Source: Cymodocea nodosa | Taxonomy: Eukaryota; Streptophyta; Magnoliopsida; Alismatales; Cymodoceaceae | Assembly: GCA_036874045.1 (NCBI GenBank) | Contig: CM072340.1 | Location: 3,053,001 to 3,117,000 of the forward strand | Length of the DNA stretch: 64,000 bases | Direction of reading: 5' to 3' | Program-made: the position numbers and the translations under genes | The notes under the pieces: model-generated | Database searches by the model: none | What the model saw: the letters and a program-made list of their open reading frames with translations, nothing else | Told to the model about the DNA's origin: nothing | Shown here: piece after piece, positions 35,553 to 63,728 of the stretch | Layout of the letters: every line of letters begins with the position of its first letter | Position numbering within the stretch: the stretch's first letter is position 1

Positions 35553-35931
35553 ATTATGGGATTCAATCGACACTACAAGATTTCTTAGAGAATTGGAAGA
35601 GTGGCATACAAGGTAGAAAATTAGAAATACCACTAGAGAAAAATAGCTTGAAAAGGTAGAAGTTGACCTTTTTCATTTTACGAGAGTTTTAGTAGATTTA
35701 AATGTCAGAGTACCTGTAATAATGGAAATAAGAATACGAGTGGCAACAGAAACTACTATTAGTAGGGAGAGGAGAATCAAACCTAACAATGAGGTTGCCT
35801 TAGAACTCATAAGGAGGAAGTTACGACTATGGTTCATATGAAAGATAGCTACTCATGCAAGGATGCAACAAGAAAGAGAGCAAACTAAAGTGTTTGCAGA
35901 AGTAGAACAACAAGCAAGACCTTTAGTACCA
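35553..35931 (+). pseudogene. Athila E ORF3 start (broken, cut by H)
   Basis: Aligns with the start of ORF3 in H at 59700 downward. It is cut at 35931 by the LTR of H, so H inserted into this gene. Confidence 0.55.
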
Positions 35932-37876: not shown

Positions 37877-37890
37877 CTTCCCCCATACTT
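37877..37890 (-). other. Athila H polypurine tract
   Basis: Minus strand AAGTATGGGGGAAG directly before the 3' LTR; it primes plus-strand synthesis. Confidence 0.8.
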
Positions 37891-37898
37891 AAATGTTG

Positions 37899-37903
37899 CT
37901 AGT
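37899..37903. repeat. Element F target duplication, left
   Basis: CTAGT, identical to 52085-52089, directly outside the F LTR ends. Confidence 0.85.
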
Positions 37904-38568
37904 TGTTTAGAATGAAAAAGTGCATATTATTAACAGTTAAATGATGATTAATTGCATAATATTTAGCTTATCATATGAGAATTAAGCCATTATGTTATAA
38001 TTGCACTGTTATATGCTTTAATTGAAGAATCTGCTTAATTTTGGGGAATTAATGTTAATTTAGTACATTTATGAACTATCGGTAAGTTGCAGGCTGTGAA
38101 ATTCTTAAGTATCCGAATTTTCTGATATTTCGGATAGTTATGTTTAAATTGCCGAACAGTTATGTTTAGAGAGAATATTTTATTTCCTGATGTACATGTG
38201 TTGAGATCTAGTAGATTTACTTAAGTTATAACTCGTTAAGTTAGCATAACTGTACACATTAAGTTGTTATATTGAACATTAAGGTAACATGTTAGGTTAG
38301 CGTTATAAACTTAAGTTGTTATTTTTTGCACGTGTTTTATAGTTAAATCAACAAAGAAAGTCCGTTGAGTTATTTGTAAGTCCACAGACTATATATTTTC
38401 TAAAATGCCACTGTAGCGGTTGCAGGAACAGACAATTGGAAGGAAAAACCACGTTTGCACGTATCACGTAGGAATTCAATCGCGTAGGGAGAAAGAAATC
38501 ATCGTTGTTGATCTAAAGGAAGGAAATCCAACCGACCATTCAAGCATAAGTAGTTACTACGGAAGAAA

Positions 38569-38576
38569 TATAAAAG
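38569..38576 (+). promoter_or_regulatory. LTR TATA box
   Basis: TATAAAAG in a purine-rich stretch. The same box is at 50904-50911 in the 3' LTR. Its position in mid-LTR fits a retroelement promoter. Confidence 0.5.
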
Positions 38577-39394
38577 AAAAGAAGAAAAAAAGAAGTGTGT
38601 GATCGATGGACGACCAATGTATACAGAGGAGGAGCACCGAGCTTTCTACAGATAGTATTGGCGATTCTCTGAAGTATCACACCAACCATCGTTATCACCA
38701 CCATAATCACCAATCATCGGAGGTCTGTGAGGATACTTGCCTGATGTCGGGTCGATTCCGAGCCAAACACAGTGCCTGACAACCATTGTGAGGAGTGATC
38801 GCGTCGCGGGAAGGGAAGCCATTTTCACCAAATGTCGACTCATATTTTAGGAGATCGTAAAGCTTATAGCCTTGGCTTTGGGTTGATGCTTGTATGCTGA
38901 AGAGGAGATCATCTTGCAATTCTGGACTCGCGATTCTATAGGGAGAGGAGACAGAATTGTAAGTGGTTTAATTTTCAATGGTGTAATCGCGTTGCAAGTA
39001 GTGTCAGAAGTATTTACTGTCAAGTGAGATTACTTTACATTTCACCTTTCGCCCATTACATCAAAAACAAAAATACCAAAAACAATTTATCTTTGTTTGT
39101 ATGTTGTATTTGAGTGTTGTATTATTTGTGTTGTATCGTGATTAATGTTATCTGTATCAGTTTTATGATTACTTTATGTTAGTTTTAATTTTACAGTTTA
39201 CTGAAATTGGTTCGTACAAAACAACTTAAAGATTTTAATGGTTACTGTTTGAATCATCTGAATGTTAGTATTGCTTAATGATAAATCCAATGTTAACTAG
39301 CATTAAAAAGCTTAATTGATGTTATTTACAATCTATGGAATCGCCCAATGGTTGGTCGAATTCCTCTGTAAATAGTAGTATTATAAAGAAGAGA

Positions 39395-39500
39395 CAGGCT
39401 CGTAGAGTTAACTTAAGTCCACGAGGATAGTCCGTTGAGTTAGCCATAACTCATTGAACTTAGTCCGTTGAGTTAACTGTTAACTCAACGGAGTGCTTAT
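39395..39500. repeat. GTTGAGTTA palindrome cluster in the F 5' LTR
   Basis: Successive GTAGAGTTAACTTAAGTCCA, GTTGAGTTAGCCATAACTC and GTTGAGTTAACTGTTAACTC units. The same cluster is at 51720-51820 and, reversed, at 44960-45100. Confidence 0.8.
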
Positions 39501-39771
39501 TGAATATAAATTTGAATTGTTCAGAATCAAACATTTCTTAAATTCGTCAGCAATTCCCTATGGGATCGACCTATACTTGCACACTGATACAATAGACATT
39601 GTGCACTTGTAGTTAAAGTACAAATTGGAATTAATATCTAAATTGTATTAAAGGTTGTTTGTTTACTTCTAAAAGAAAGAATAGGCATAAAGATAAATTA
39701 ACTAAGTAAAAATAGAAGTAACAAATCCAAGTTTTTCTAGTGTAGTGTTGGGAAAACCCAAACAAGTTTTA

Positions 39772-39791
39772 TGATGTCGTTGTCGGGGAAT
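39772..39791 (+). other. Element F primer-binding site
   Basis: TGATGTCGTTGTCGGGGAAT resembles the Athila site TGGCGCCGTTGCCGGGGATT (aspartate tRNA) with a few transitions. It lies seven bases after the LTR. Confidence 0.7.
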
Positions 39792-39894
39792 TGAATTGAA
39801 CTGAATTGAATTGAATTGAATAGATATAAGTAATTGTTAGAGCTGTTTCGTTTTAATAGTCAGAGTTGTGTGTTTTCTTCTGTAATTGAGAATA

Positions 39895-41044
39895 TGGCAT
39901 ATGCTTATGCTCAAAGATTTCTAAAACCTTTAATTAGCTTATGTGAATTCTGCAATTCTGAAGGACACGACATTTCTGATTGTTTGAAATTGAGACATTT
40001 ACAGATTGTTAGATCCCATGAACAACAAATGAATTATCCTCAATATAATAGAGCCGAGTATGAGAATCCTATAGTTTACCCAACTGATGGTCAGTATAGA
40101 ATGTGTAATATGATGAGAGACACTGAAGTTTGGGATAGGTATGACAGACTGGAGCATAGTATAGAGCAAAATCTGGACAAACTAGAATACTTTGTGTGTC
40201 AACAATAAGAAGTCAACCGGTTAAACTATAAGGAGGCATATTCAGAACCTAAACATGATATAATTTACGAAACTGAAAAAGCCATAAAGAAAATTGATCA
40301 AAAATTGAATGCAATGAAATTATATGATCTGGAAACAAAATTAAAAGCATTAGACAAAAATGCAAGGAAAATACAAGTTTTGCAACAAGACAATGAAAAT
40401 TATAATGTTATAAACCTGCACAACTTGCAAAATATACAACAAATAGAAAACACTAATGTAAGAGAATTTAAAGAATGCACTTTAAAACTAAAAACAATTA
40501 AAGATCATAATCACAAAAATTATATACAAAAACATCATGAAAGTAACGAAAATCTGGAAGATGTATGTGTAAACTTAAGATCTGGAACTGATATACCACC
40601 AAGAACTCAAAATGAAAATGATATGAAGGTGGACAAGAGTAAAAATCAAAATGATAATGAAAATGTAATAGCTAAAAATTTAGAAATCACTGAAGAACAA
40701 TTTGAATTTGCAATTGAAGCTAAAAATGATCAAACAAATCAACTGAAAGAAAAAGAGTCTTTGAAATCAAAATCTTTAGCACCCTATCCTGAAAGATTAC
40801 AACAAACGATTCCTGAAAAACAAGAAAAAATCAGAGAAATTTTTGAAAAAGTACAAGTTAACATTCCTTTGTTAGATCTATTGCAGAATATGCCACCTTG
40901 TGCTAAATTTCTGAAGGATTGGTGTACTAAGAAAAGAGAGCGAAAAGTTCTTAGAAAGGTCTTTGTAGCTGAGCAAAGTAGTTCCCTATTTCTGCCACAA
41001 ATTCCTAAAATGTATCTTTCATCATATGTGTTTCATTTAATCTA
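39895..41044 (+). pseudogene. gag: Element F gag C-terminal/protease-proximal ORF, one stop
   Basis: Opens MAYAYAQRFLKPLISL, followed by a zinc knuckle CEFCNSEGHDISDC (C-x2-C-x4-H-x4-C, intact). One in-frame TAA at 40206-40208 (from CAA) interrupts it. After the stop the same frame runs on for 278 codons, with a charged coiled-coil-like middle, NLRSGTDIPP, and APYPERLQQTI...VNIPLLDLLQNMP. These recall the part of Athila polyproteins just before the protease. From 41008 the frame runs into the inverted block, so its last 12 or so residues are foreign. The capsid part is absent here. Confidence 0.7.
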
Positions 41045-41370
41045 GAATTCACATCTCAGCTCCTTTAGGACTTCAGATAATTTTCTGATTAAGCATTAAA
41101 TATTCTGATTTCATTTTAAAATCGTGAAACTGTTAAACTCATGAAATTCAGAAAAATCATAAGATACTATATCTAGATTTACATAAATAATAAATTCTAT
41201 AGCATCTTCTATAGCCTTCTAAATATAACATTCAAGTAGTTTATAAAAATTTTACAGTCTCAATTATCGAATAGTTACAGCAAGTTCATAAAAATTTTCA
41301 ATTTCCTCAAAACTTTGCAGTACCATTTTAATTCCTTTAATTAACAAACTTACATGGCTGTTACTTTAAT

Positions 41371-41388
41371 TACCTCCCCCCCATACCT
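41371..41388 (-). other. Internal second polypurine tract (left arm)
   Basis: Minus strand GTATGGGGGGGAGGTA preceded by ATGTAG. It resembles the true tract before the LTR. Copies lie at 49050-49067 and 53356-53374. Confidence 0.6.
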
Positions 41389-41820
41389 ACATTTTGCATT
41401 GTCCTCAATGTAAAAGATTTGACAATAAATATAGTAATTGTAGCAGGCATGAATAAAGTTTTGTTTAATTTAAAATTCAGGATAAGTAATTGGTTACATA
41501 CCTTGTTCCATTTGTATCTCTTTCTGCATATTCCGATTTTTGATTCTGAAAAACTTTTCATTCCTAGATAAATACAGAATATAAAACAAAATAACATTTA
41601 ACAGATATTAATAAATTAGTGTCTTGTGTGGAACCCAGGCTTCTATGCCTTTGGTGGCTCACAAGTAAGCCAATTAGTTTCCCAGAATAGATACCAACAA
41701 ACTGGATTGATATTTTTTTTTGTTTGTTTTTTTTTATAAAATGAACATGAAAAACTTCAAAATTCCTTTTTTTTTTCTTTTTCTTGTTTTTTTAAAAATA
41801 AATGTAGAATACACACGTTA

Positions 41821-42936
41821 AACAAATGGAACAAATATATCAGTCCAAGCAAACTTTTTAGGCATAGTTCTTCTTGCTATTAATTCTATTTTAATACAGT
41901 TCTTGTTCATTTTTAATTTGTAAACATGCAATATATTATAAATTCCAAATACGAGTATATTACCATTAATGATATGTAATGCAGAAAGGGATCCTTTTTG
42001 GTTCTAGGGTAATGTAGCAGTTTCTATTTCTACATCTATTTCAATATACACCTCTTACCACTTCCATTCATTCATGTCTTCCATAATCTATATTTGAAAT
42101 TTCATCAGTTCATCCCACCATCTTATTAGACATAAAGTAGGATCATCTTCTTCATTATACCACATTCCTATTTGAATTTCATTAAATTTTGCAGATGGTG
42201 GTTTAGCTATTTCACTCGGTATAGGTAAAATTTCTATATAATCATCATAACTGTCTATGCTTACAATGTATAAATCAGATCCATATGCTAATGATATCTC
42301 CATGACTAAATAGATATATCCATCAAATATGACATGTGTTTGGTTAATTAATGATTTCTGTCCTAGATATATTATAATGTTTTCATTCCAAGATCTGTTT
42401 AGAAAATTATACACACTTAAGCGTAAATCTTCACCCTAATTTCCTGTAGGTCTCCAATAATATAATTTTTCAGAAATTGCAGAATTTTTATCAGAAAATA
42501 TTAAATTTCACCCATAATTTACAGTTGATGCTTCAAATCTATTAGGTCTTCCTATATTCCATTCTTCTCCTGTTATAAGATTTCTTATCAAAATATCAGG
42601 TAATGATAAACTTGCATACCTTGGTCTCGTCTTGTATATGATTAATCCTTCATCTATCCCCATAATATGACTCATTCCTTCTAATGCATTGGGTGGAATT
42701 CCAGTAGTTTCTTCCATAGCAAGATATTCATGGGTATTTGAACTACGATTAAATGACCTCCATATGAATCCATCTCTAATCTTAGTCATTTTTGCAGCTT
42801 GTAGTCCCTTAAAATATTTTTCTTCAATACAGTCTTTAATTTCCTTTGATACACAACACACCCTGCACAGATCTTTAGCTGACAAGTTACTTAGTATTTC
42901 CCTTTGTGCATCCAACGGTAATTGCATTAATTCCAT
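41821..42936 (-). pseudogene. F-box gene copy 1 (broken, 3' end missing)
   Basis: Starts MELMQLPLDAQREILSNL at 42936, an F-box (LPLDAQREILSNLSAKDLCR, then VSKEI). A substrate-side part resembling F-box-associated domains follows, with LPDILIRNLITGEEW, SDLYIVSIDSYDDYIEILP and LCLIRWWDELMKF. It has about five stops: one or two near 42450-42510, one near 42440, and others near 42090, 42060 and 42020. The last ten or so codons are replaced by unrelated sequence. F-box proteins link SCF ubiquitin ligases to targets; that role is inferred from the domain only. Confidence 0.75.
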
Positions 42937-43079
42937 TTGTTGATTCTGTAAAACACAAATAAAAATTTAGTAGAGACAAAAAACTAACATAACTACTGCA
43001 CACCCTTGTGGAGTTAAGGCATAACTCAACAGACTAAGTTCGTTGAGTTAAAAATTAACTCTACGATACTATTAACTTA

Positions 43080-44483
43080 AAATAAAACATATATACATAC
43101 AAATAGTTGCTTCAGATTTGCTGCTTCATTCAACTGCCCTCCTAGAAGAGGTATCAATTTCATTAACTGTTCTATTGACAGGATTAGGTATAGCTTGAAT
43201 TGGCAATCCTCTAGTAGGTCTAACTTCCATTGGTTCCTTCTGTCTAAGTGATATATTTCTATTCTGATTTTGAATTGCAACATTTCCAAATATAAATTTT
43301 AGACGATTGTTTACTTGTTGGATTATCTTTTCTAATTTCTTTATTCTAGCTCCTTATTCAATTAATACTTCATAACTTATGTTCTTCTCATTTATATTTT
43401 CTCCTCCCTGGAAATTGTTGTTTCTCCAAGATAAATTCGGGTGATTTCTCCAATTAAGATTATAAGAATTTCCCAAGTTATCTCTCTGGTTTCTAGCATA
43501 AATAATATCTAAGTCATTTATGTTTGTATTCTTTTTTGCTAGCTTTTGATTTAATGATAACTCTTCTATTTTTTTTGTTAATTCATTTAATTTCACCTCA
43601 AGCATAGTATTTGAATCTATTTCATGCATTCCTCTTGGCAATAATCTTTTATCTGCAATAGCTTCAGCCGAATTTTCCCATTGTGTAGTTCTTTTTGCAA
43701 AATTTTCTAAATATGCCCATGCTTCTTCACTACATAATTTTAAAAATCCATTTTGACAAGTAGATTCTAGTAAAGATTTCGTTGAAACATCTATGCCTTC
43801 ATAAATTATGCCTTCATAAATTATGCCTATTAATTGTGCTTTACTCGTTACATGATGTGGACATTGAGTTAGTAAATCTTTAAATCATTCAAAATATTTC
43901 CAAAATGATTCACCCTATTTTTGGCTACACATTAATATTTCTTTCTTCTTTTTAATCATTTGATGTGTTGGATAGTATTTTTCCAGAAAAGAGAGCAAAA
44001 TTCAGTCCATGTAGAAATTGAATCAAGCGATAGAGTATATAACCATCTCTTAGCTGTATCTTTTAAAGCAAAAGGGATATATCTAAGTTTAATAGCATCT
44101 ATACTCATGTTCGGCATTCTCATCATTTGATAAACTTCATTAAATTCTCTAAGGAAATAATAGGCATCCTCTCTTTATAATCTATGAAAATGTGGCAATT
44201 GACTAATATAATTAGATTTTAGTTCAAACCTATCTCCCTCAAAGTTTGGCAATCGAATACATAAAGGTTCATCAATTAATTCAGGATACAGAATCTCTCC
44301 TAATGGTTTTTCTACTGGAGCAGCCATCTCTATGTTCTCTTTTAAAGAAAGGTTAGCTACACCCCAAGGAATTTCGTTAAAGTTCAGTTCAGAAAATTTT
44401 TCAATACTCCTCTACAATGAAAATTCCTAGGTAGGTGTTCTTACTAATCGTTTAGTGCTTAGAGAATGAGTTCATGTGCTCAT
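43080..44483 (-). pseudogene. gag: Athila-type gag upstream of F-box copy 1 (broken)
   Basis: Reads PNFEGDRFELKSNYISQLPH, then IDAIKLRYIPFALKDTAKRW and STWTEFCSLFWKKYYP, the capsid of Athila gag. It ends with NLNWRNHPNLSWRNNNF and a linker with PRGMHEIDSNTMLEVKLNEL. A TGA replaces the Trp of the fourth codon, and several TAG/TAA stops follow. A 15-base duplication repeats IIYEG. The stop lies shortly before the intron-like segment. Confidence 0.75.
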
Positions 44484-44698
44484 AAATAAATAGCAGAAGA
44501 TTAATTACATACCAGTCTGAAGCTTTCCATTCTATAAATATTTGTTGTCGGATGAAGGTTGAATCAACTACTTCTCCTTCCAGTTCCTCCAATGCTTTCT
44601 CCTTTCTTTTAAAAGTGCTGGTAACTCGTAAATAACATTCTGTTTCATATATATACTGCGCATCCACATCATGCAATGAGTAAAACACAATTAATAGG

Positions 44699-46589
44699 TG
44701 TTTGGGTTTTCCCAGCACTACACTAGAAAAACTTGGATTTGTTACTTCTATTTTTACTTAGTTAATTTATCTTTATGCCTATTCTTTCTTTTAGAAGTAA
44801 ACAAACAACCTTTAATACAATTTAGATATTAATTCCAATTTGTACTTTAACTGCAAGTGCACAATGTCTATTATATCAGTGTGCAAGTACAGGTCGATCC
44901 CACAGGGAATTACTGACGAATTTAAGAAATGTTTAATTGTGAACAATTCAAATTTATATTCAATAAGCACTCCGTTGAGTTACAGTTAACTCAATGGACT
45001 AAGTTCGTTGAGTTACAGTTAACTCAATGGACTAAGTTCATTGAGTTATTGCTAACTCAACGGACTATCCTCGTGGACTTAAGTTAACTCCACGAGCCTG
45101 TCTCTTTATAATACTACTATTTACAGAGGAATTCGGCCAACCATTGGGCGATTCCACAGATTGTAAATAATATCAATTAAGCTTTTTAATGCTAGTTAAT
45201 ATTGGATTTATCATTAAGAAATACTAACATTCAGATGATTCAAATAGTAACCATTAAAATCTTTAAGTTGTTTTGTACGAACCAATTTCAATAAACTGTA
45301 AAATTAAAACTAACATAAAACAATCATAAAATTGATACAGATAACATTAATCATGATACAACACAAACAATACAACACTCAAATACAACATACAAACAAA
45401 GATAAATTGTTTTTGGTATTTTTGTTTTTGATGTAATGGGCGAAAGGTGAAATGTAAAGTAATCTCACTTGACAGTAAATACTTCCGACACTACTTGCAA
45501 CGTGATTACACCACTGAAAATTAAACCACTTACAATTCTGTCTTCTCTTCCTATAGAATCGCGAGTCTAGAATTGCAAGATGATCTCCTCTTCAGCATAC
45601 AGGCATCAACCCGAAGCCAAGGCTAAAAGCTTTACGATCTCCTGAAATGAGTCGGCGCTTGGTGAAAATGTCTTCCCTTCCCGTGACGCGATCACTCCTC
45701 ACAATGGTTGTCAGGCACTGTGTTTGGCTCAGAATCGACCTGACATCAGGTAAGTATCCTCATAGACCTCCGATGATTGGTGATTATGGCGGTGATAACG
45801 ATGGTTGGTGTGATATTTCGGAGAATCGCCGATACTATCTGCAGAAAGCTCGGTGCTCCTCCTTTGTATACATTGGCCGTCCATCGATCACACACCCTTC
45901 TTCTTTTTTTCTTCTTTTCTTTTATATTTCTTCCATAGTAACTGCTTCTACTTGAATGCTCGGTTGGAGTTCCTTCCTTCAGATCAACGGCGATGATTTC
46001 TTTCTCCTTGCGCGATTGAATTCCTGCGTGATACGTGCAAACGTGATTTTTCCTTCCAACTATCTATTCTTGCAACCGCTACAGTGGCATTTTAGAAAAT
46101 ATATAGTCCGTGGACTTACAAATAACTCAACAGACTTTCTTTGTTGATTTAACTATAAAACACGTGCAAAAAATAACAACTTAAGTTTATAACGCTAACC
46201 TAACACGTTACCTTAATGTTTAATATAACAACTCAATGCGTATAGTTATGCTAACTTAACGAGTTATAACTTAAGTAAATCTACTAGATCTCAACACGTG
46301 TACATCAGGAAATAAAATATTCTCTCTAAACATAACTGTTCGGCAATTTAAACATAACTATCCGAAATATCAGAAAATTCGGATACTTAAGAATTTCACA
46401 GCCTGCAACTTACCGACAGTTCATAAATGTACTAAATTAACATTAATTCCCCAAAATTAAGCAGATTCTTCAATTAAAGCATATAACAGTGCAATTATAA
46501 CATAATAGCTTAATTCTCATATGATAAGCTAAATATTATGCAATTAACCATCATTTAACCGTTAATAATATGTACTTTTTCATTCTAAA
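44699..46589 (-). repeat. Inverted LTR inside element F
   Basis: A nearly complete minus-strand LTR of the F subfamily. Its 3' end TGTTTGGGTTTTCCC (plus strand) starts at 44699. Its other end stops at CATTCTAAA, two bases short of CATTCTAAACA, at the junction with the right arm. No primer site of the Athila kind follows it. Confidence 0.85.
44960..45100. repeat. GTTGAGTTA palindrome cluster (inner LTR)
   Basis: GTTGAGTTACAGTTAACTCA occurs twice, then GTTGAGTTATTGCTAACTC and GTGGACTTAAGTTAACTCCA. Each can fold into a hairpin with a stem of 8-10 bp. Confidence 0.85.
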
Positions 46590-47293
46590 TAATAGGCATA
46601 ATTTATGAAGGCATAGATGTTTCAACGAAATCTTTATTAGAATCTACTTGTCAAAATGGATTTTTAAAATTATGTAGTGAAGATGCATGGGCATATTTAG
46701 AAAATTTTGCAAAAAGAACTGCACAATGGGAAAATTCGATTGAAGCTATTGTAGATAAAAGATTATTGCCAAGAGGAATGCATGAAATAGATTCCAATAC
46801 TATGCTTGAGGTGAAATTAAATGAATTAACAAAGAAAATAGAAGAGTTATCATTAAATCAAAAGCTAGCAGAAAAAAATACAAACATAAATGACTTAGAT
46901 ATTATTTATGCTAGAAACCAGAGAGATAACTTGGGAAATTCTTATAATCTTAATTGGAGAAATCACTCGAATTTATCTTGGAGAAACAACAATTTCTAGG
47001 GAGGAGAAAATATAAATGAGAAGAATATATGTTATGAAGTATTAATTGAACAAGGAGCTAGAATAGAGAAATTAGTAAAGATAATCTAACAAGTAAACAA
47101 TCGTCTAGAATTTATATTTGAAAATGCTGCAATTCAAAATCAGAATAGAAATATATCACTTAGACAGAAGGAACCAATGAAAGTTAGACCTATTGGAGGA
47201 TTGCCAATTCAAGCTATACCTAATCCTGTCAATAGAACGGTTAATGAAATTGATACCTCTTTTGGGAGAGCAGCATATCTGAAGCAACTATCT
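46590..47293 (+). pseudogene. gag: gag C-terminal part in the right arm (partial)
   Basis: Begins inside gag at IYEGIDVSTKSLLESTC. Open piece 46766-46999 has PRGMHEIDSNTMLEVKLNEL and NLNWRNHSNLSWRNNNF, then a TAG and PIGGLPIQAIPNPVNRTVN. A deletion of about 14 bp removed the usual gag stop, so the frame runs up to the intron-like donor at 47294. Confidence 0.7.
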
Positions 47294-47448
47294 GTATGTA
47301 TATATGTTTTATTTTATGTTAATAGTATTGTAGAGTTAATTTTTAACTCAACGAACTTAGTCCGTTGAGTTATGCCTTAACTCCACGAGGGTGTGCAGTA
47401 GTTATGTTAGCTTTTTGTCTCTGTTAAATTTTTATTTGTGTTTTACAG
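47294..47448 (+). other. Intron-like segment before F-box copy 2
   Basis: Begins GTATGTATAT and ends TTTGTGTTTTACAG, canonical plant splice signals. Nine bases later comes the F-box ATG. It contains a GTTGAGTTA palindrome. The same arrangement precedes copies 1 and 3. Confidence 0.5.
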
Positions 47449-47457
47449 AATCGACAA

Positions 47458-48597
47458 ATGGAATTAATGCAATTACCGTTGGATGCACTAAGGGAAATAC
47501 TAAGTAACTTGTCAGCTAAAGATCTGTGCAGGCTGTGTTGTGTATCAAAGGAAATTAAAGACTGTATTGAAGAAAAATATTTTCAGGGACTACAAGCTGC
47601 AAAAATGACTAAGATTAGAGATTGATTCATATGGAGGTCATTTAATCGTAGTTCAAATATCAATGAATATCTGGGTATGGAAGAAACTACTGGAATTCCA
47701 CCCAATGCATTAGAAGGAATGAGTCATATTATGGGGATAGATGAAGGATTAATCATATACAAGACGAGACCAAGGTATGCAAGTTTATCATTACCTGATA
47801 TTTTGATAAGAAATCCTATAATAGGAGGAGAATGTAATATAGGAAGACCTAATATATTTGAAGCACCAACTGAAAATTGTGGGTCAGCTTTAATATTTTC
47901 TAATAAAAATTCTACAATTCCTGAAAAATTATATTATTAGAGACTTACAGGAAATTGGGGTGAAGATTTACGCTTAAGTGTGTATAATTTTCTGAACAGA
48001 TCTTGGAATGAAAACATTATAATATATCTAGGATAGAAATCATTAATTAACCAAACACATGTCATACTTGATGGTTATATCTATTTAGTCACGGAGATAT
48101 CAATAGCATATAGATCTGATTTATACATAGTGAGCATAGACAGTTATGATGATTATATAGAAATTTTACCTGTACCGAGTGAAATAGCTAAACCACCATC
48201 TGAAAAATTTAATGAAATTCAAATAGGAATGTGGTATAATGAAGAAGATGATCCTACTTTATGTTTGATAAGATGGTGGGATGAACTGATGAAATTTCAA
48301 ATATGGATTTTGGAAGACATGAATGAATGGAAGTGGGAAGAGTAGTATATTGAAATAGATGTAGAAATAGAAACTGCTACATTACCCTAGAACCAAAAAG
48401 GATCCCTTTCTGCATTACATATCATTAATGGTAATACACTCGTATTTGGAATTTATAATATATTGCATGTTTACAAATTAAAAAGGAACAAGAACTGCGT
48501 TAAAATAGAACTAATAGCAAGAAGAACTATGCCTAAAAAGTTTGCTTGGACTGATACATTTATTCCATTTGTTTCTACTTTTCAATCATGTTCTTAA
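47458..48597 (+). pseudogene. F-box gene copy 2 (five stops)
   Basis: Full span of 380 codons from MELMQLPLDALREILSNL to FQSCS and TAA. The F-box covers residues 5-45 or so, then FBA-like blocks LPDILIRNPIIGGE, FLNRSW, SDLYIVSIDSYDDYIEI, LCLIRWWDELMKFQIW and MPKKFAWTDTFIPF. Stops at about 47634 (TGA for Gly), 47938, 48034, 48343 and 48388 (TAG). Length and blocks fit a plant F-box/FBA protein. The family assignment is by motif; no named host gene is recognised. Confidence 0.75.
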
Positions 48598-50374
48598 GTT
48601 GTGATTTTGTGTGTTTAACGTGTGTATTCTGCATTTATTTTTAAAAAAAAAGAAAAAGAAAAAAAAAAGGAATTTTGAAGTTTTTCATGTTCATTTTATA
48701 AGAAAAAAAAAAATAAAAACAAAATATCAATCGAGTTTGTTGGTATCTGTTCTGGGAAACCAACTGGCTTGCTTGTGAGCCACCAAAGGCATAGAAGCCT
48801 GGGTTCCACACAAGACACTGATTTATTAATATCTGTTAAATGTTATTTTGTTTTATATTCTGTATTTATCTGGGAATGAAAAGTGTTTCAGAATCAAAAA
48901 TCAGAATATGCAGAAAGAGATACAAATGGAACAAGGTATGTAACCAATTACTTATCCTGAATTTTAAATCAAACAAAACTTTATTCATGCCTGCTACAAT
49001 TACTGTACTTATTGTCAAATCTTTTACATTGAGGACAATGCAAAATGTAGGTATGGGGGGGAGGTAATTAAAGTAACAACCATGTAAGTTTGTTAATTAA
49101 AGGAATTAAAATGGTACTGCAAAGTTTTGAGGAAATTGAAAATTTTTATGAACTTGCTGTAACTATCCGATAATTGAGACTGTAAAATTTTTATAAACTG
49201 CTTGAATGTTATATTTAGAAGGCTATAGAAGATGCTATAGAATTTATTATTTATGTAAATCTAGATATAGTATCTTATGATTTTTCTGAATTTCATGAGT
49301 TTAACAGTTTCACGATTTTAAAATGAAATTAGAATATTTAATGCTTAATCAAAAAATTATCTGAAGTCCTGAAGGAGGTGAGATGTGAATTCTAGATTAA
49401 ATGAAACACATATGATGAAAGATACATTTACTTTGACTGATTGAACTTGTAGAATGATTTATGTGTAGATCTTATTAAACTACAGATAAAGTATGAGCTT
49501 ATTGTTATGGATTCATATTTTTAGTAAATGATAGAAGCAGGATTATATGAGATTGGTGTTTTACTACATCTGTATTAATGAAATACGTGCATATACAGTA
49601 TGTGATTAATGCTTTGTTTTGTGTGTGCATTTATTTTTAGAAAAAAAAAAAGAAAAAAAGAAAAAAATAAAAGAAAAGAAAAAGAACTTTGAGAGTTTAT
49701 TGACTTGTTTGATCACGAGCCTTTTGTACTTGAGCAGATAGGTATGTAAGGATTGTTGACCTGAAAAAGGACTCTGAAAATCTGGCAACCTAAGATCCTG
49801 ATCAGATCTGGGATTGTTGACTGAAAGCTCATTACATGGGTACATTAGAAAACTCTTGTATGATTAAAGCTTGTTAAATTAACTTTTAAAGTACACAAAA
49901 AAAAAGAAAAGATATAATGTTCTGAAAAGATATTAGTGTTTTGTGAAGTACAGATATTTTATGAATCGAGTATATTTTTTGTTATCTAGAATTGCTGAAA
50001 TATGAATTTGGAATTGACTTTTGAAGTTGTTTAATACAATTCTTTATTCTACTTGTCTTAATTAGATTGAATTGGATAGTAATTTGATTCGTATGTTGTT
50101 GAAATTTCTTCTAGAAAACTTATTGGAAAATTCAGGATTACAAATGATGAAAAGAAGAACAAACGATAATATAATTAACACCTATATGAAGATGATATAC
50201 TTTGTATGTAATTTACATATATTCTAAATATTTTTGCAGGTTGATTACTGAAACATACAGAATATATGTTTATGCTAAACAGAAGAAAAAAAACAAAAGG
50301 GGAAGAATTAATTCGAGCACTTTTTGAAAGGCCAATTAATTAGATCTTAGTTTGTTAAGGGACTAGCAAAATTT
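48598..50374 (+). other. 3' non-coding region of element F
   Basis: Has an internal polypurine tract at 49050-49067 and a possible small exon 48892-48935 (acceptor TGTTTCAG, donor GTATGTAACC). An acceptor-like ATTTTTGCAG lies at 50230-50239. The 75-codon frame at 48840-49067 is also open in the left arm (41370-41597) but is broken in H, so I do not call it a gene. Confidence 0.5.
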
Positions 50375-50388
50375 AGGTATGGGGGAAG
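50375..50388 (+). other. Element F polypurine tract
   Basis: AGGTATGGGGGAAG immediately before the 3' LTR. Confidence 0.85.
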
Positions 50389-52084
50389 TGTTTAGAATGA
50401 AAAAGTGCATATTATTAACGGTTAAATGATGGTTAATTGCATAATATTTAGCTTATCATATGAGAATTAAGCCATTATGTTATAATTGCACTGTTATATG
50501 CTTTAATTGAAGAATCTGCTTAATTTTGGGGAATTAATGTTAATTTAGTACATTTATGAACTGTCGGTAAGTTGCAGGTTGTGAAATTCTTAAGTATCAG
50601 AATTTTCTGATATTTCGGATAGTTATGTTTAAATTGCTGAACAGTTATGTTTAGAGAGAATATTTTATTTCCAGATGTACACGTGTTGTCTGTATTTTAT
50701 TGAGTTATCTGTAACTCCACAGACTATATATTTTCTAAAATGCCACTGTAGCGGTTGCAGGAACAGATAGTTGGAAGGAAAAACCACGTTTGCACGTATC
50801 GCGTAGGAATTCAATCGCGTAGGGAGAAAGAAATCATCACTGTTGATCTGAAGGAAGGAAATCCAACCGACCATTCAAGCAGAAGCAGTTACTATAGAAG
50901 AAATATAAAAGAAAAGAAGAAAAAAAGAAGAAGTGTGTGATCGATGGACAACTAGTGTATACAGAGGAGCACCGAGCTTTCTGCAAATAGTATCGGTGAT
51001 TCTCTGAAGTATCACACCAACCATCGTTATCACCACCATAATCACCAATCATTGGAGGTCTGTGAGGATACTTGCCTGATGTCGGGTCGATTCCGATCCA
51101 AACATAGTTCCTGACAACCACTGTGTGGAGTGATCGCGTCGCGGGAAGGGAAGCCATTTTCACCAAGCGCCGACTCATATTTTAGGAGATCGTAAAGCTT
51201 TTAGCCTTGGCTTCAGGTTGATGCCTGTATGCTGAAGAGGAGATCATCTTGCAATTCTGGACTCGTGATTCTATAGGGAGAGGAGACAGAATTGTAAGTG
51301 GTTTAATTTTCAGTGGTGTAATTGCATTGCAAGTAGTGTCGGAAGTATTTACTTTCAAGTGAGATTACTTTACATTTCACCTTTCGCCCATTACATAAAA
51401 AACAAAAATACCAAAAACAATTTATCTTTGTTTGTATGTTGTATTTGAGTGTTGTATCGTGATTAATGTTATCTATATCAGTTTTATGATTGTTTTATGT
51501 TAGTTTTAATTTTACAGTTTATTGAAATTGGTTCGTACAAAACAACTTAAAGATTTTAATGGTTATTGTTTGAATCATCTGAATGTTAGTATTGCTTAAT
51601 GATAAATCCAATGTTAACTAGCATTAAAAAGCTTAATTGATGTTATTTACAATCTGTGGAATCGCCCAATGATTGGCCAAATTCCTCTGTAAATAGCAGT
51701 ATTATAAAAAAGAGACAGGCTCGTGGAGTTAACTTAAGTCCACGAGGATAGTCCGTTGAGTTAGCCATAACTCAACGAACTTAGTCCGTTGAGTTAACTG
51801 TAACTCAACAGAGTGCTTATTGAATATAAATTTGAATTGTTCAGAATCAAACATTTCTTAAATTCGTCAGCAATTCCCTGTGGGATCGACCTGTACTTGC
51901 ACACTGATACAATAGACACTGTGCACTTGCAGTTAAAGTACAAATTGGAATTAATAGCTAAATTGTATTAAGGGTTGTTTGTTTACTTCTAAAAGAAAGA
52001 ATAGGCATAAAGATAAATTAACTAAGTAAAAATAGAAGTAACAAATCCAAGTTTTTCTAGTGTAGTGCTAGGAAAACCCAAACA
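50389..52084 (+). repeat. Element F 3' LTR (1.70 kb)
   Basis: Starts TGTTTAGAATGAAAAAGTGC and ends GAAAACCCAAACA, followed by the target duplication CTAGT. TATA box at 50904-50911. It lacks about 165 bp present in the 5' LTR. Confidence 0.9.
51720..51820. repeat. GTTGAGTTA palindrome cluster (F 3' LTR)
   Basis: GTGGAGTTAACTTAAGTCCA, GTTGAGTTAGCCATAACTCA and GTTGAGTTAACTGTAACTCA in a row, as in the 5' LTR. Confidence 0.85.
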
Positions 52085-52089
52085 CTAGT
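52085..52089. repeat. Element F target duplication, right
   Basis: CTAGT, identical to 37899-37903. After it, Athila H internal sequence continues. Confidence 0.85.
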
Positions 52090-53822
52090 CCCTTAGCAAA
52101 CTAAGGTTTAATTAATTTGTTTTTTTTATTTACTAGATTTAATTCTTCATTTCGCTCTTCTTCAGAATAATAAATTAGATTACTATTTATATATTCTGTA
52201 TGCTTTAGTAATCTGTTTTAACTTTGTTTTCTCCTCTTCAACCTACAAATATATTTAGAATATATGTAAATTTCATACAAAATATATCATCATCACATAG
52301 GTGTTAATTATATTATCATTTTTTTCTTTTCAACATCTATCATCTTGAATTTTCCAATATGATTTCCAAAATAAATTTCAAGTACATATGAATCAAAACA
52401 CAATCCAATTCAATATGATTAAGACAAGTAGAATAAAAAATTGTATCTCAAATAAATAACTTCAAAAGTTTAATCTAGATTCATACTTCAGCAATTTTAG
52501 ATAACAGAAAATATACTCGATTCAAAAGATATCTGTATTTCACAAAACACTTGTATCTTTTCAAAATAGTATATGCATATTTGTACTTTTAAAAGTTAAT
52601 TTGACAAGCTTGAATCATACAAAAGCTTTTTAGTGTACCAATGTATCGAGCTTTCAGTCAACAATCCCCAATCTGATCAGGATCTTAGGTTGCCAGATTT
52701 AAAGAGTCCTTTTTCAGGTCAACAATCCTTACATACCTATTTGCTCAAGTATAAAAGGCTCGTGATCAAACAAGTTAATAAACTCTCAAAATTTTTCTCC
52801 TTTTTTTCCTCTTTTTTTCTTTTCAACACAGTATATGAACGTATTTCATTAATATAGATGTAATAAAACACAAATCTCGTATATTCCTGCTCTTATTATT
52901 TACTGAAAATATGAATCCATATCAATAAGCTCATACTTTTTTTGTAATGTAATAAGATTTACACAAATCATTCTACAAGTTTAATTAATCAAATTAAATG
53001 TATCATTGATCATATGTATTTCCTTTAATCCAAAAATCAACATTTCAGCTCTTTTAGGATTTCAGATAATTTACTGAGTTTCAGTTAAACATTCTAATTT
53101 CTTTTTAAAATCGTGAAATTGTTAAACTCATAAATTTCAGCAAAAACATAAGATACTATATCTAGATTTGTATAAGTAGTAAAATTGGTAGCATCTTATA
53201 TAAGATTATAAATTTAACATTTTAGTAGTTATAGTTCTTTAAAAATTTTTGCAGTTTCAATTATCGGATAGTTATAGCAACTTCAATTTCCATAGAACTT
53301 TTGCAGTACTATTTTAATTCTTCTAACTAACAAAATTACATGGCTGTTACTTTAATTACCTCCCCTCATACCTACATTTTGCATTGTTCTTAATGTAAAA
53401 GATTTTTTAGTAAATACAGTAATTACAACAGGCATGAATATTGTTTTGTTGACTTAACACCTAACTCAACGAACTTAATTCGTTGAGTTAATGAATAACT
53501 CCACGAACTGAGTTTAAATGTAAATTTAGGATAAGTAATTAATTACATACCTTGTTCTTTTGTATCTCCTTCAATATCTTTCGATTTTTGAATCTGAAAA
53601 ACTTTTCATTCACAATTAAAAGCAAAATATATAACAACAAAACATAACTTGTTACTTAGTGGCTTGTGTGGAACCTAGGCTCCTATGCCTTTGGTGGCTC
53701 ACAAGCAAGCCAGTTGGTTTCCTAGAACAGATACCAACAAATTAGATTAATATTTTGTGTTTTTTTTTTTCTCTAAAAATAAATGCAGACTACACATAAC
53801 ATTAAAAACACAGAATCATACT
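52090..53822 (-). other. 3' non-coding region of Athila H
   Basis: Reverse complement counterpart of 48598-50370. It keeps the internal purine tract (53356-53374) and the small exon-like block with donor GTATGTAATT near 53550. An open frame on the opposite strand (52633-52857) matches one at 49606-49845 antisense to element F. Confidence 0.6.
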
Positions 53823-54905
53823 TTAAGAACATGACTTAAAAGTAGTAACAAATGGAATAAACGTGTCAGTCCAAGCAAACTTTTTTGGCATAATTTTTCT
53901 TGCTATCAATTTTGTTTCAATGTAGTCTATTTTCCTTTTTAATTTGTAAACTTGCAGTATGTTATCAATACTAAATATAAGTATATTTCCATTAATGAAA
54001 TGAAATGCAGAAAGAGATCCTCTTCTATTCCAATATAGTGTAGCTGTTTCTATTTCTACATCTATTTCAATATATTCCTCTTCCCACTTCCATTCATTTA
54101 GGTCTTTTATAATCCATATTTGAAATTTCTTCAATTCATCCTACCATCTTATCAGACATAAAGTAGGATCATCATATTCATTATACCACATTCCTAATTA
54201 TATTTCTATAAAATCATCATAACTGTCTATGCTTATTATGTATAAATCAGATCTAAATGCAACTAATATATCTATGACTAAATATATATATTCATCAAGT
54301 ATGACATGTATGTTGTTAATTAATGATTTCTGTCCTAAATATATCATATTGTTTTTAGTCCAAGATCTATTCAGAAAATTATACACACTTAAGCATAAAT
54401 CTTCATCCCAATTTCTAGTAGGTCTCCAATAATATAATTTTTCAGAAATGGTTGAATTTTTATCAGAAAATATTAAAGCTGACCCACAATTTTTATTTGG
54501 TACTTCATATCTATTAGGCCTTCCTATATTCCATTCTTCTCTTGTGAGAGGATTTCTAATTAAAATATCAGGTAACAGAATTGCAAACCTGGGTTTGGTT
54601 CTGTATATAATTAATCTTTCATCCATCCTCATAATATGATATATTCCTTCTAATTTATTGGGTGGAATTACAATAGTTTTTTTCATATTCAGATATTCAT
54701 AGCTAATTGAACTACGATTAAATGACTTCCATAAAAATCCATCTCTAATCTTAGTCATTTTTGCAGCTTGTAGTCTATGAAAATATTTTTCTCTAACACA
54801 ATCTTTAATATCCTTTGATACACAACACAATCTGCACAGATCTTTAGCTGACAAGTTACTTAGTACTTCCCTTAGTGCGTCCAATGATAATTTCATCAAT
54901 TCCAT
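53823..54905 (-). pseudogene. F-box gene copy 3 in Athila H (best preserved)
   Basis: Starts MELMKLSLDALREVLSNLSA at 54905, with CVSKDIKDCVREKYF completing the F-box (residues 5-45 or so). FBA-like blocks LPDILIRNPLTREEWNIG, LYYWRP, FLNRSW, SDLYIISIDSYDDFIEI, LCLIRW and MPKKFAWTDTFIPF follow, ending FKSCS. The frame is open for the first 236 codons. A deletion of about 57 bp near 54198 (between short GAAAT repeats) and one TAG for Trp near 54142 are the only visible damage. Protein identity to copies 1 and 2 looks like 75-80 percent, so this is an older, separate lineage. Confidence 0.75.
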
Positions 54906-54916
54906 CTGTTGTGATT

Positions 54917-55067
54917 CTGTATGACATAAACAAAAATTAACAGAGACAAAATTAACATAGCTACTACACATCCTCATAGAGTTAGGTCATAACTCAATAG
55001 ACTAAGTTCGTTGAATTAAGTAAACTTACATATTTTTTTATATTTTTTTCTACTTACTATATTATAC
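54917..55067 (-). other. Intron-like segment before F-box copy 3
   Basis: On the minus strand it starts GTATAATATAG and ends GTCATACAG, twelve bases before the F-box ATG. The donor is weaker than in the F copies (GTATAA for GTATGT). Confidence 0.45.
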
Positions 55068-55090: not shown

Positions 55091-56438
55091 TCATTTGGTT
55101 ACCCTCCTAGAGGAGGTATCAATTTCATTAACAGTTCTGTTAATAGGGTTAGGTACTGCTTGCATTGGCAATCCTCCAATAGGTCTAACTTCTATTGATT
55201 CTTTCTGTTTAGGGGGTATATTTCTATTTATATTTTGATTTTGAATTTCAGCATTTCCAAATACAAAATTTAAACGATTGTTTAATTGTTGAATTATCTT
55301 TTCTAACTTCTCTATTCTAGATCCTTGTTCAATTAATGCTTCATAATTTATATTCTTGTCATTTATATTTTCTCCTACTTGGAAATTGTTATTTCTCCAA
55401 GATAAATTCGGGTGATTTCTCCAATTAGGGTTATACGAATTTCCAAAGTTATCTTTCTGGTTTCTAGCATAAATAATATCTAAGTCATTAACGTTTACAC
55501 TTTTTTCTGCTAGTTTCTGATTTAATGATAACTCTTCTATTTTCTTTGTTAATTCAGTTAATTTAACTTCAAGCATAGTGCTTGAATCTATTTCATGCAT
55601 TCCCCTTGGCAATATTCTTTTATCTACAATAACTTCAGCTAAGTTCTTCCATTGTGCAGTTCTTTTTGCAAAGTTTTCTAAGTATGCCCATGCTTCTTCA
55701 CTATACAATTTTAAAAATCCATTATGACAAGTAGATTCTAATAAATATTTTGTTGAGACATTTATGCTTTCATAAATTATACCTATCAATTGTGCTTTAC
55801 TCATTACATGATGTGGACATTGAGTTAGTAAATCTTTAAATCTTTCAAAATATTTCCAAAATGATTCTCCTTGTTTTTGGGTACACATTAATATTTCCTT
55901 TTTCTTTTTAATCATTTGATGTGTTGGATAATATTTTTCCAGAAAAATAGAGTAAAATTTAGTCCATGTAGAAATTGAATCAGGCGATAGAGTATATAAC
56001 CATCTCTTAGCTGTCTTTTAAAGTAAAAGAGATATATCTAAGTTTAATAGCATCTATACTCATGTTCGACATTTTCATCATTTGACAAACTTCGTTAAAT
56101 TCTCTAAGGAAATAATAGGCATCCTCTCTTTCTAATCCATGAAAATGTGGCAATTGACTAATATAATTAGATTTCAATTCAAACCTATCTCCCTCAAAGT
56201 TTGGCAATCGAATACATGAAGGTTCATCAACTAATTCAGGATACAGAATTTCCCCTAATGGTTTCTCTACTAGAGCAACCATATCTTCGTTCTCTTTTAA
56301 AGAAAGGTTAGCTACACCCCTAAGGATTTTGTTAAAGTCTAATTCAGAAAATTTTTCAGTACGTCTCTGTGTTGAATAATTCTGTGTAGTTGTTCTTACT
56401 AATCGTTTAGTGCTAGGAGAACAAATCCATGTGCTCAT
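55091..56438 (-). pseudogene. gag: gag of Athila H (one frame shift)
   Basis: Starts MSTWICSPSTKRLVRTTTQN. The capsid has PNFEGDRFELKSNYISQLPH. A loss of two bases near 56010 shifts the frame. The second part reads GESFWKYFERFKDLLTQCPH, WAYLENFAKRTAQWKN, NPNWRNHPNLSWRNNNF and PIGGLPMQAVPNPINRTVN, ending RRVTK and TGA. This is an Athila-type gag, but it lies downstream of ORF3, not at the 5' end of the element. Confidence 0.75.
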
Positions 56439-57447
56439 AAACCCTTAACATAAAATAAGATAGTAGAAGATTAATTACATACCAATTTGAAACTTTATAT
56501 TCAGTAAATAGTTGTTGATGGATAAAGTTGAATCAACTACTTCTCCTTCCAGTTCCCCAACGAATTTTCTTTTCTCAAATGTTGGTAACTTGTAAACAAT
56601 ATTCTGTTCTATATTTATAATGCACGTCCATAAAGCATATGAATCTCGTTGCAAGAATGTGACTTGTAACGTGTAGTATGGTTCCTACTTTTATGGTACG
56701 TGTGTCACTTCTAATTTCAAATTTCAGTAACCGCTAAACCCACGAAGTTTCATTCGTGGCTAAAAGAATAACTGTTTAGCTTAATCCACGAACTAACCTC
56801 GTTGAGTTATAGATAACTCAATGGAAAGTTGAGTTATAGATAACTCAACGGAATAGCATCGGTTACTGCTACTAACTCCACGGACTAACTTCGTTGAGTT
56901 ACAGATAACTCAACGGAGTGACCTTATATTATATTATTGACCTCGTGGAGTTAAGGTTAACTCAACGGACTTACTTCATTGAGTTAACACTTAGCAGATT
57001 TTCTAAACTTACTCCTCGTATTAACTTCTATATATAAATTTCTCTCCTACATTCTTTTCAACTTAAATAAAGTTAAATATATGACATTAATGCACTGTTC
57101 TAATTAAAACTCATTTAAATCTGAACATTATATAAATATTTAACTTGCAGTTCATTTCATGTTATGTAGAATTTAAATTTTTCTTTGTAGCATGTAGATA
57201 TTTTCAAGCATTAATTAATTATCGTGCCTTTAATCTTGTCATTTAGTAAATTTGCATATCTTTTAAACAATCTTGCATTTTGTTCAAACCATTATATAAT
57301 ATTCAATATAGTTCATCCATTTCATCATTCTCAAACACGAATGAAAAATACATTTGAAAAACACACATTCATTAATATGAATAGTATACATTACAATAAC
57401 TCAAATATTTTTCATACAAATGTACACAAGTAGACAAACAATACAAT
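56439..57447 (-). other. Leader of the gag/F-box module and Athila spacer
   Basis: 56439-56640 matches the leader between the inner LTR and gag of element F, with a conserved donor GTATGTAATTAA at 56482. Beyond 56640, where F has its LTR, H instead has spacer sequence leading to ORF3. 56740-57000 is a dense palindrome cluster. Confidence 0.5.
56740..57000. repeat. GTTGAGTTA palindrome cluster (Athila H spacer)
   Basis: At least five units, including GTTGAGTTATAGATAACTCA (twice), GTTGAGTTACAGATAACTCA and GTGGAGTTAAGGTTAACTCA. Confidence 0.85.
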
Positions 57448-59700
57448 TTAATCTCTTCTCCTAATTTCATCTACTTCCTTCTAGAGTCTTTCCACTTGTT
57501 GCTCTAATAGGTTAATTCTTTTTACAGCTCTTGTAACTCCTCTAGAAGGTTCAGCAATTTCTACAACAACATAGTTTTGGTACTCTTTCACTGAAATGGT
57601 TCTTGATCTTTTCCTTTTGGATGCCCATTTCGTGAAATCAATACTATCCACCATCAATAGTGGAATCAAATCTCCATAAAATAATTTCTTCTTTATTGCT
57701 TTCAACTTGGAGATAAATACTTTGTACCAATTAACTTGAATTATGTTTACAACTACATAAGTAGCCCACTTGACAAATTGACTAAGTTCAATGTCATGGC
57801 CTTGTCTTTGATAAATAGTTTTTACTAATATGATTGCGACCATGTGTGCCTTTCCATTTAAGTACTTCAATCTATTCAGTAATGGCACACTAGGGTTGAT
57901 GGCTATGCACTGTTTAATTTCCTATTCAGCCCATTCCACTGCAGTTGTTTTTTCTAAAATTTCAATTCCTTCATTTCTCAGTCTGAAAATATTGTGGAGA
58001 AGCTCTAGTGTTATCTGTACATCAACTTTCTCCACATTGGAAATTAATCCTCTTTCTCCTTCTCTCAAATTTGCATAAAAGTAGGGCACTAAATTCTCAT
58101 ATACTGCATGCCCTCTCTATTGAGAAATAAACTATAGTAGACCTTGGAACTCAAATAAATCCTTAATTTCTTACATCCCATCCTAATTTATTGGTCTACT
58201 GTAAATAATATCATAACCCCTAATCTTTTGGTATTTGTTATAAGCTTCCTGACTCCAAAAGTATACTTCATTTAAAACTGTTGCCTCTGTAGGGTCAGGA
58301 ATATGAATTTGTTGCTCTAGAGGGGTTTGTTCTTGAACTTCCTCTTCTAAATGCTGAACTTGGACGTGTTGAAAATGCTCTACGGATTCCTGAATATTTG
58401 CTTTTGCTTCTATCTGTGGTGGAGAGCCGGCAAAACTCTCCACTCTGTCTTGAATACTTTCCAAAAATTGCTGAAGAGTTTCTTGCTCTTCAATGGAATC
58501 TGTAGAGTCATTTCTTTCCATATATACTTGTTCAGCTTCTTGTTCATTTTCTATTCTTTCTTCTTCCTCCTGACTACCAATCTGCATTGTAACTGTTCTT
58601 TCTAATTCTGTGGCAGATTGGGATGGAGTTACGGGTAAATTAACTTCTGCCCTAATTTCTATTTCTTCTTCTTGTACAGGTTGTAGACTAGTTTCAGCCT
58701 GTTTTTCTTCTTCTATTTGCTCTTGCTGCTGCTGCTCCTACTCCTCAGATTCGGATAGCAGGTTTACAAAATTTAGCTCTACAGGCTCTACTGACATTTG
58801 TATTTCAGTTTTAATCTCCTCGTGATATTCAGACATTATCTCTTTTCCTTTCCTTTTTCTGATTAATTGTGTCTGGTCTTCCTCTTCGTCTTCCTCATCT
58901 GAAATTAAATCCACAAAAATAGGCTCTACAAACATTTGAGCCATAGGTATTGGCTCTTCCTATTTAATTCTTTCTATAATTATTGGTCTCGAAGGACCAG
59001 CTTCATCTCCTTTTGTAGCAGGTTTGGCAGTAGCTTCACGATGTTGTTCCACTTTGATTCTATATTGGGCTTTCAGCTTTTCTGCAGCCCTCTTTTTGCA
59101 TCGTGCATCAAACACCAAATGTGCTATAGCTACTACTAATTCTTCTGGTTCTCCTTGGTCTCTTCCTATTTGAACTAGTTCTTGAAATTCTCTTTTTTCT
59201 TCTTCAATAGAAGGCCCCAAAATTACTGCTCGTTCCATCGGCCTTGGTGGTGGAACTGAAGGTCCTAGCTGCTGTTCCTCAAGAACAGTTTTTTTAGCAG
59301 TTGGTTCCTCTTGTTCTTGAGTTGCCTCTTCTTCTCTTTCTTTCCTTTCTTACTCCCAGATTGCCCATTTAGCTCGTCCATAGATTCGTCTTTTGAACCA
59401 AAGCTGGGACTTACGTTAGATTAATTCTAGGGCAACTTCGTTGTTTGGCCTTATTTTTTTCTCTTTGCTTACAGCAATTTCCGTAGCAACCTTTATTCTT
59501 ATTTCTACTATTTGAGGTATTTGTATACCCAAATCTACTAAAACTCTTCTGAAGTTGAAAACTTCAGATTCTACCTTCTGTAGTTCTTTTTCTCTTGTCG
59601 TATTTCTGATTTTCTGCCTCGTGTGTCATTCCTCTGATTCTTTAAGAAATTCTGAAGTGTCAACCGCATCTTCCTAGAACTCGAGTGTCATCTTCCTCAT
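57448..59700 (-). pseudogene. Athila ORF3 (env position, broken)
   Basis: About 750 codons from the ATG at 59700 to the TAA at 57448, with six or more stops. The middle is very acidic and glutamine-rich. The C-terminal third has LVPYFYANLREGERGLISNV, LNRLKYLNGKAHMVAIILVK and ELSQFVKWATYVVVNIIQ, which recall the plant transposon protein found after integrase in Athila elements. No signal peptide or membrane segment is clear, so an envelope role is not supported. Confidence 0.65.
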
Positions 59701-63400: not shown

Positions 63401-63690
63401 AATCTCAGAATTAAGTTGCCTATTTAATTCTTCTTGAATCACATCATCTTGCATATCTCCTTCAACCTCCAAAAAGTCTATAGTATGTAAGGATATTTCT
63501 AGCTCTTCAAACTTTTCTGGTTTAAAAATGTTTAATTGAGTATCCTCATTACCATATGCTAACTTCATAATTCCAGTTTTACAATTTATAGCAGCCCTTG
63601 ATGTTGCTAAAAATGGTCTTCCCAAAATTAAAGATGTATCACTATTTTTATGCTTAATTTGTTGGGAATCCAAAATTACAATATCAATAG
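60428..63690 (-). pseudogene. pol: Athila H pol: protease end, RT, RNase H, integrase (broken)
   Basis: Protease C-terminus FIYPIDIVILDSQQ and LILGRPFLATSRAAINCKTG at 63690-63570; its active-site half is gone. RT has CIDYRKLNVVTRKDHFPLPF, FLDGYSGYNQV and EIFMDDFTVYG (active FMDD, about 62580). RNase H has FELMCDASDFAVGAMLGQ and [19 protein letters not shown]. Integrase has [32 protein letters not shown] and SGQVESANK, and a C-terminal chain ending 60428 with GQEVYLYMTRLHNHPKKLRS. The order and motifs are those of Athila. At least eight stops or shifts. Confidence 0.85.
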
Positions 63691-63728
63691 GATATATGAA
63701 GTTTTTGATTTTAATTAATAGGATATAT

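Follow-up and report, generated by a model that had tools for sequence, protein, structure and literature searches.

An F-box gene is a standard gene of an Athila-like retrotransposon family in Cymodocea nodosa, with the capsid gene 3' of pol

Plant long terminal repeat (LTR) retrotransposons may carry additional open reading frames (ORFs) between pol and the 3' LTR (PMC7264820), mostly without known function. Orchid Ty3/gypsy elements carry an ORF of this kind with a cellular-type 2-ODD (m6A demethylase-like) domain (PMC9289625), and among plant viruses the polerovirus protein P0 has an F-box-like motif. In cells, F-box proteins serve in marking other proteins for destruction. Here we describe two insertions, elements H and F, in 64,000 nucleotides of Cymodocea nodosa (GCA_036874045.1, contig CM072340.1, positions 3,053,001 to 3,117,000; hereafter the window). 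They belong to an Athila-like family in which an F-box gene is a standard gene and the capsid gene lies 3' of pol, apart from the zinc knuckle.

Like the Athila/Calypso/Diaspora lineage of Ty3/gypsy (PMC1142308), the family has a tRNA-Asp-like primer binding site (PBS) a few bases after the LTR, a CX2CX4HX4C zinc knuckle, the order reverse transcriptase (RT), RNase H and integrase, and an extra ORF after pol, with no second RNase H in an open frame of 512 amino acids (aa). The single ORF of Diaspora has, in this order, gag core, zinc finger, protease, RT and integrase (PMC1142308), whereas here the capsid gene stands 3' of pol and of an extra ORF (eORF) and is followed by the F-box gene. As in the orchid elements (PMC9289625), a cellular-type domain was kept as an additional ORF through several replication rounds, but the domain here is an F-box. 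As in other plant elements with additional ORFs, the ORF lies in sense orientation in the 3' region of most sampled copies; the transduced genes described with those elements occur in one or a few copies (PMC7264820), whereas the recognisable cellular domain here has at least 147 matches. The remark in the same article that no similar genes exist outside transposable elements concerns antisense ORFs. P0, too, brings an F-box motif into a genetic parasite of plants, but it is an RNA-virus protein and its motif is F-box-like.

In a screen anchored on RT, 25,565 consensuses from 121 angiosperms yielded 15 additional domains, and F-box is not among the nine named in the available part of that article (PMC9289625). 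The main texts of PMC9289625, PMC7264820, PMC11963269, PMC11728184 and PMC1142308 do not use the word F-box. No F-box gene is described as a component of an LTR retrotransposon family in the open-access titles and abstract beginnings surveyed, a scope that leaves most subscription papers outside and in which absence is not proof.

The original prediction had named three F-box reading frames in the window, and their coordinates and strands agree with ours:

41821..42936, minus strand: inverted copy of the F-box frame in element F, with 5 stops
47458..48597, plus strand: direct copy of the F-box frame in element F, with 5 internal stops
53823..54905, minus strand: F-box frame of element H, 2 stops and about 18 aa deleted

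The F-box expected at the start of each frame was found by Pfam PF00646 in 3/3 (E-values 1.8e-9, 8.7e-11 and 8.7e-9; cut-off 20.5 bits) and in 10/10 further copies scanned, so that the predicted domain stands, although every one of the three frames is broken. No Pfam Athila ORF family matched them. Protein identity is 75% between F and H, at the lower end of the predicted 75-80%, and 90% between F and its inverted copy. Beyond the F-box, the rest of the frame is conserved between copies and has no Pfam domain above cut-off. The label of F-box-associated (FBA) domain was not borne out: with PF07734 and PF08268 tested, FBA_1 reached E 0.092 (13.1 bits against a cut-off of 21.1) in 1 of 10 copies only, and FBA_3 reached E 1.5, also in 1 of 10 copies only. 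F-box queries against a protein database gave none of 1750 candidates at E<=0.001 and, in a second search, none of 7220 at E<=10, and so lent no support to capture from a host gene; the capsid query gave 5 relatives. A single PDB match (E 0.035) was taken as chance.

Comparison of the H F-box frame with the genome (374.6 Mb, 28 contigs), a check that had been proposed together with the prediction, gave at least 147 matches on 21 contigs with 81-100% identity, all at E<=2.2e-139 (147 scored out of 6114 first-look candidates). Eight of the 147 listed matches, H among them, are free of stops over the part matched. The capsid query gave at least 128 matches (128 scored out of 6709 candidates), of which 22 have a listed F-box within 1.5 kb downstream, and the two lists together cover at least 253 distinct places. 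Four capsid places without a listed F-box were read; three have the F-box at its usual place, and the fourth, L045, has lost it.

We picked 19 F-box copies to spread over the contigs and read 10 kb upstream of each. In all 19 the pieces on the F-box strand follow the canonical order of the sampled copies, which is LTR, tRNA-Asp-like PBS, zinc knuckle/protease/RT/RNase H/integrase, eORF, capsid, F-box, polypurine tract and LTR. A capsid frame (PF03732) lies 214-225 bp upstream of the F-box in 17/19, and the same 17 share one element context, contrary to the possibility that copies elsewhere would prove unlinked to LTR elements. The two exceptions are L034, without capsid, and L039, whose own F-box copy follows an LTR; a second capsid/F-box pair in the L039 stretch supplies the capsid and eORF counted for it. 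Both eORF and capsid are present in 13/19 copies, pol-derived pieces and capsid in 12/19, and pol-derived pieces, eORF and capsid in that order in 11/19. All that is left of pol in L037 is the protease and the zinc-knuckle ORF. In L034 (G000:C13:8431000-8440999) unrelated sequence starts just before the acceptor block described below. On contig C2, 13 F-box matches lie within about 8.75-9.71 Mb, with 6/12 spacings of 59-63 kb and one TAA stop in each; they are probably one amplified unit carrying one element.

At all four junctions read (F, L022, L035 and L036) the LTR leads to the PBS and the zinc-knuckle ORF without an intervening capsid, and these junctions together with the order in the copies place the capsid 3' of pol. 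The zinc-knuckle ORF is in frame with the protease in L038, where Asp_protease_2 matched at E 0.017, below cut-off. At the other end, F and L042 have the F-box 3' region, polypurine tract and LTR in succession, as does H once the nested F is set aside. Thus the gag upstream and the polypurine tract and LTR downstream that the original prediction had placed around the F-box are all present, but the gag is the capsid part only and is located after pol. The gag/F-box pair does lie at the env position, a description that was incomplete in that pol, eORF and the displaced capsid precede the F-box. Given the shared gene order and the many copies, we conclude that the F-box gene is a standard gene of the family. 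H and F share its neighbours at a noncoding divergence of about 16-17%, and two LTR subfamilies, about 82% identical, have both retained it. The predicted inheritance of the F-box gene within the element lineage was therefore upheld, and it is strongly supported that the family already had the gene when the F and H lineages diverged and that it has been copied along with the element since.

Paired LTRs and 5-bp target duplications in F and H identify both as LTR retrotransposons. Compared with the sequence that we take to be the 3' end of tRNA-Asp, the PBS has 2 mismatches in L035, 3 in L022 and 5 in F; a search of the window for the exact pattern with up to 3 mismatches gave no match. One open 512-aa frame (L033) has only RT_RNaseH and integrase domains, with no Tat-type second RNase H. 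The capsid is not joined to the zinc knuckle upstream of pol as in Diaspora, and we therefore call the family Athila-like and do not file it as typical Athila.

Although the window holds three F-box frames, as predicted, it holds only two insertions, because two of the frames are an inverted duplication inside one element. Element H lies on the minus strand and extends from 35932 past the window end, with the following parts:

35927..35931, no strand: TACCA target duplication, with its partner past the window in the flanking stretch L040
35932..37876, minus strand: 3' LTR
37877..37888, minus strand: polypurine tract
54917..54968, minus strand: block resembling an acceptor, with a terminal AG 11 nt before the F-box ATG
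55094..56444, minus strand: capsid gag (PF03732), two overlapping frames
56801..56986, minus strand: hairpin repeat array before the capsid gene
57484..59349, minus strand: eORF between integrase and capsid, in pieces
60431..63742, minus strand: pol (protease-like, RT, RNase H, integrase), broken pieces
63734..64000, minus strand: part of the 5' LTR, continuing past the window

L040 contains the 5' LTR of H and the matching TACCA, and the two LTRs are 93.6% identical over 1828 positions. H, flanked by TACCA at either end, is a single insertion and holds pol, eORF, capsid and F-box. PF03732 matched at 55094-56017 on the minus strand (E 1.3e-16), and the eORF has no Pfam match above cut-off. The protease, also without a Pfam match, was named by what we presume to be its motif. 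The last part of the 5' LTR and the stretch between LTR and protease are missing. Another related element, on the plus strand and about 80% identical to H, is represented at 33510-35805 by integrase and spacer; H was apparently inserted into it.

Element F spans 37904 to 52084. It lies inside H, no more than about 15 bp from the polypurine tract of H. Its LTRs are 95.6% identical, and CTAGT occurs on both flanks:

37899..37903, no strand: CTAGT target duplication, left
37904..39764, plus strand: 5' LTR
39772..39789, plus strand: PBS like the presumed tRNA-Asp 3' end, 5 mismatches
39894..41042, plus strand: 5' ORF in which a CX2CX4HX4C zinc knuckle and a gag-protease linker were recognised by eye; one stop
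41008..44698, minus strand: inverted capsid/F-box module
44699..46591, minus strand: solo LTR inserted in F, with ATAGG duplication at 44694-44698 and 46592-46596
46597..50377, plus strand: direct capsid/F-box module and 3' untranslated region (UTR)
50378..50388, plus strand: polypurine tract
50389..52084, plus strand: 3' LTR
52085..52089, no strand: CTAGT target duplication, right

The 5' ORF has no Pfam capsid match and ends at the inverted module, and sequence homologous to the H capsid gag lies upstream of both F-box frames of F. The large inverted duplication (41008-50377) has arms about 94% identical, near the divergence of the F LTRs, and is possibly a template-switch product. At a substitution rate of 1.3e-8 per site per year, the LTR distances correspond to about 1.75 million years for F and 2.6 million years for H.

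The original prediction had proposed a dN/dS estimate between the H and F lineages; the simple Ka/Ks is weak evidence. We simulated changes under a neutral spectrum taken from the LTR and 3' UTR, comparing codons common to both F copies with H. The F-box gene has 64 replacements against 94.8 expected (0/3000 simulations as low), 28 synonymous changes against 21.1 and 1 stop against 9.4, giving an omega of about 0.51; the capsid gave 0.34-0.36, so the constraint is weaker on the F-box. When the simulation was conditioned on total changes, stops were again few (1 against 8.9, P 0.0015).

Private and shared variants were then compared in 26 F-box and 25 capsid sequences. In the F-box, stops are more frequent among private than shared variants (20/229 vs 8/222, P 0.031), and the replacement/synonymous ratio is 2.73 vs 1.82 (P 0.059); leaving out F and its inverted copy changes it to 2.82 vs 1.63 (P 0.02). 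Wrong-frame controls gave 2.39 vs 1.80 (P 0.23) and 3.36 vs 2.78 (P 0.48). The capsid shows a larger difference in this ratio (3.91 vs 1.33, P 3e-5). This contrast in replacements favours the displaced capsid as the functional one; counting against it, capsid stops are equally frequent among shared and private variants (12/147 vs 13/180, P 0.84). We take these results as moderate support for an F-box gene kept for its function, mostly open and under moderate constraint, during the time in which the lineages were active.

The F-box ATG is preceded by a pyrimidine-rich block resembling a splice acceptor. In an alignment of 24 rows, left of 41 after 17 duplicate rows were removed, the terminal AG is kept in 24/24, the ending being CAG in 18, TAG in 5 and AAG in 1, and the block is 94.7% identical against 90.9% in the remaining spacer. 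The F-box ATG is the first ATG past the block in the rows read; with the acceptor so conserved, it would be the first ATG of the last exon, and the F-box is probably translated from its own spliced RNA. We also considered a capsid/F-box fusion spliced from a GT at the capsid end (GT in 21/24) and rejected it, because the joined frame of the H lineage, read by eye, hits a stop right after the acceptor. Spliced env-like messages are stated for barley Bagy2 in PMC7264820.

We propose, with a probability of roughly 0.5, that the copies are decayed representatives of a standard F-box gene that was kept under constraint and encoded an SCF adaptor helping the element against its host. From its domain, the protein would bind host SKP1 through the F-box, and its C-terminal part would recruit a substrate for the SCF ubiquitin ligase. 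We speculate, by analogy with P0 of poleroviruses, that this substrate is most likely a host factor restraining the element; opposition to host restraint is a guess from the same analogy. If true, viral F-box proteins would have a transposon-borne counterpart in this gene. Since its domain has a defined partner, SKP1, its role is directly testable.

Several observations weigh against this proposal. All three F-box copies in the window are broken, and a stop at residue 311, common to both F copies and not in H, implies that the gene of the F lineage was truncated before its duplication. The simple Ka/Ks was 0.55-0.58 in the true frame and 0.59-0.61 and 0.83-0.85 in the wrong frames, and was set aside because one wrong frame gave a nearly equal ratio. 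Conditioned on total changes, the simulation showed no deficit of replacements (86 vs 92.3, P 0.23), and the replacement test on 26 copies is marginal, with copies partly non-independent. L045 (1/4 capsid places read) keeps the capsid with the F-box lost. The AlphaFold model has a pLDDT of 36 and was unused.

Some of these points suit a different explanation, in which the F-box was picked up a single time and has travelled along as a passenger because its place is inside the transcribed unit, with no role for the element. The weaker constraint than on the capsid, the marginal replacement test and the loss in L045 all fit a passenger, but the deficits of stops and replacements in the first simulation and the retention of the gene in two LTR subfamilies do not, and we regard this explanation as possible but less probable. 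Action of the F-box protein on the element's own proteins, for example to limit the capsid level, would suit the near-constant capsid/F-box spacing; such adjacency may reflect joint relocation alone, and we consider this role rather improbable. That the gag/F-box pair is a separate non-autonomous element, with pol from another, was suggested by F, which has capsid and F-box without RT or integrase. This is very unlikely, and a gag-only non-autonomous element was rejected, since the matching LTRs and TACCA of H enclose both pol and F-box and pol pieces, eORF, capsid and F-box share one order in 11/19 copies. F-box genes are numerous in plants, but ordinary host F-box genes or pseudogenes hit by retrotransposons are already contradicted by the number of similar matches and by the same element neighbour in 17/19 picked copies, and are highly unlikely.

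With its capsid displaced, the family differs from the usual gag-pol order, and one may ask how enough capsid is made. A broader and more doubtful reading than the F-box adaptor proposal is that the family rebuilt its genome. The capsid would have been split from the nucleocapsid and moved beside the 3' F-box, with the same hairpin arrays separating the ORFs, and capsid and an SCF adaptor against host restraint might each be expressed through a subgenomic RNA of its own, as in a complex retrovirus. The arrays consist of a palindromic repeat, CGTTGAGTTA-nnnn-TAACTCAACG, with a period of about 33 bp, and are located in the LTRs, in three inter-ORF spacers of H and after the H F-box. The spacer before the F-box has just two imperfect half-sites in H and four in F. 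Exact half-sites number 39 in the window against 0-2 in 10 mononucleotide shuffles, 37/39 of them between 35226 and 63923, and folding of four arrays gave z-scores of -5.7 to -6.8. Further arrays are as follows:

59920-60007: similar to the array before the H capsid gene
54990-55018: similar to the array before the H capsid gene, weak
53448-53504: similar to the array before the H capsid gene
47330-47386: similar to the array before the H capsid gene
43008-43064: similar to the array before the H capsid gene
39402-39489: same element family
36182-36235: same element family
37274-37574 and others: same element family

Elsewhere in the window, two 1.7-kb stretches (8419-10128 and 24830-26535) are 72% identical in inverted orientation, and the frames near them look Copia-like by eye.

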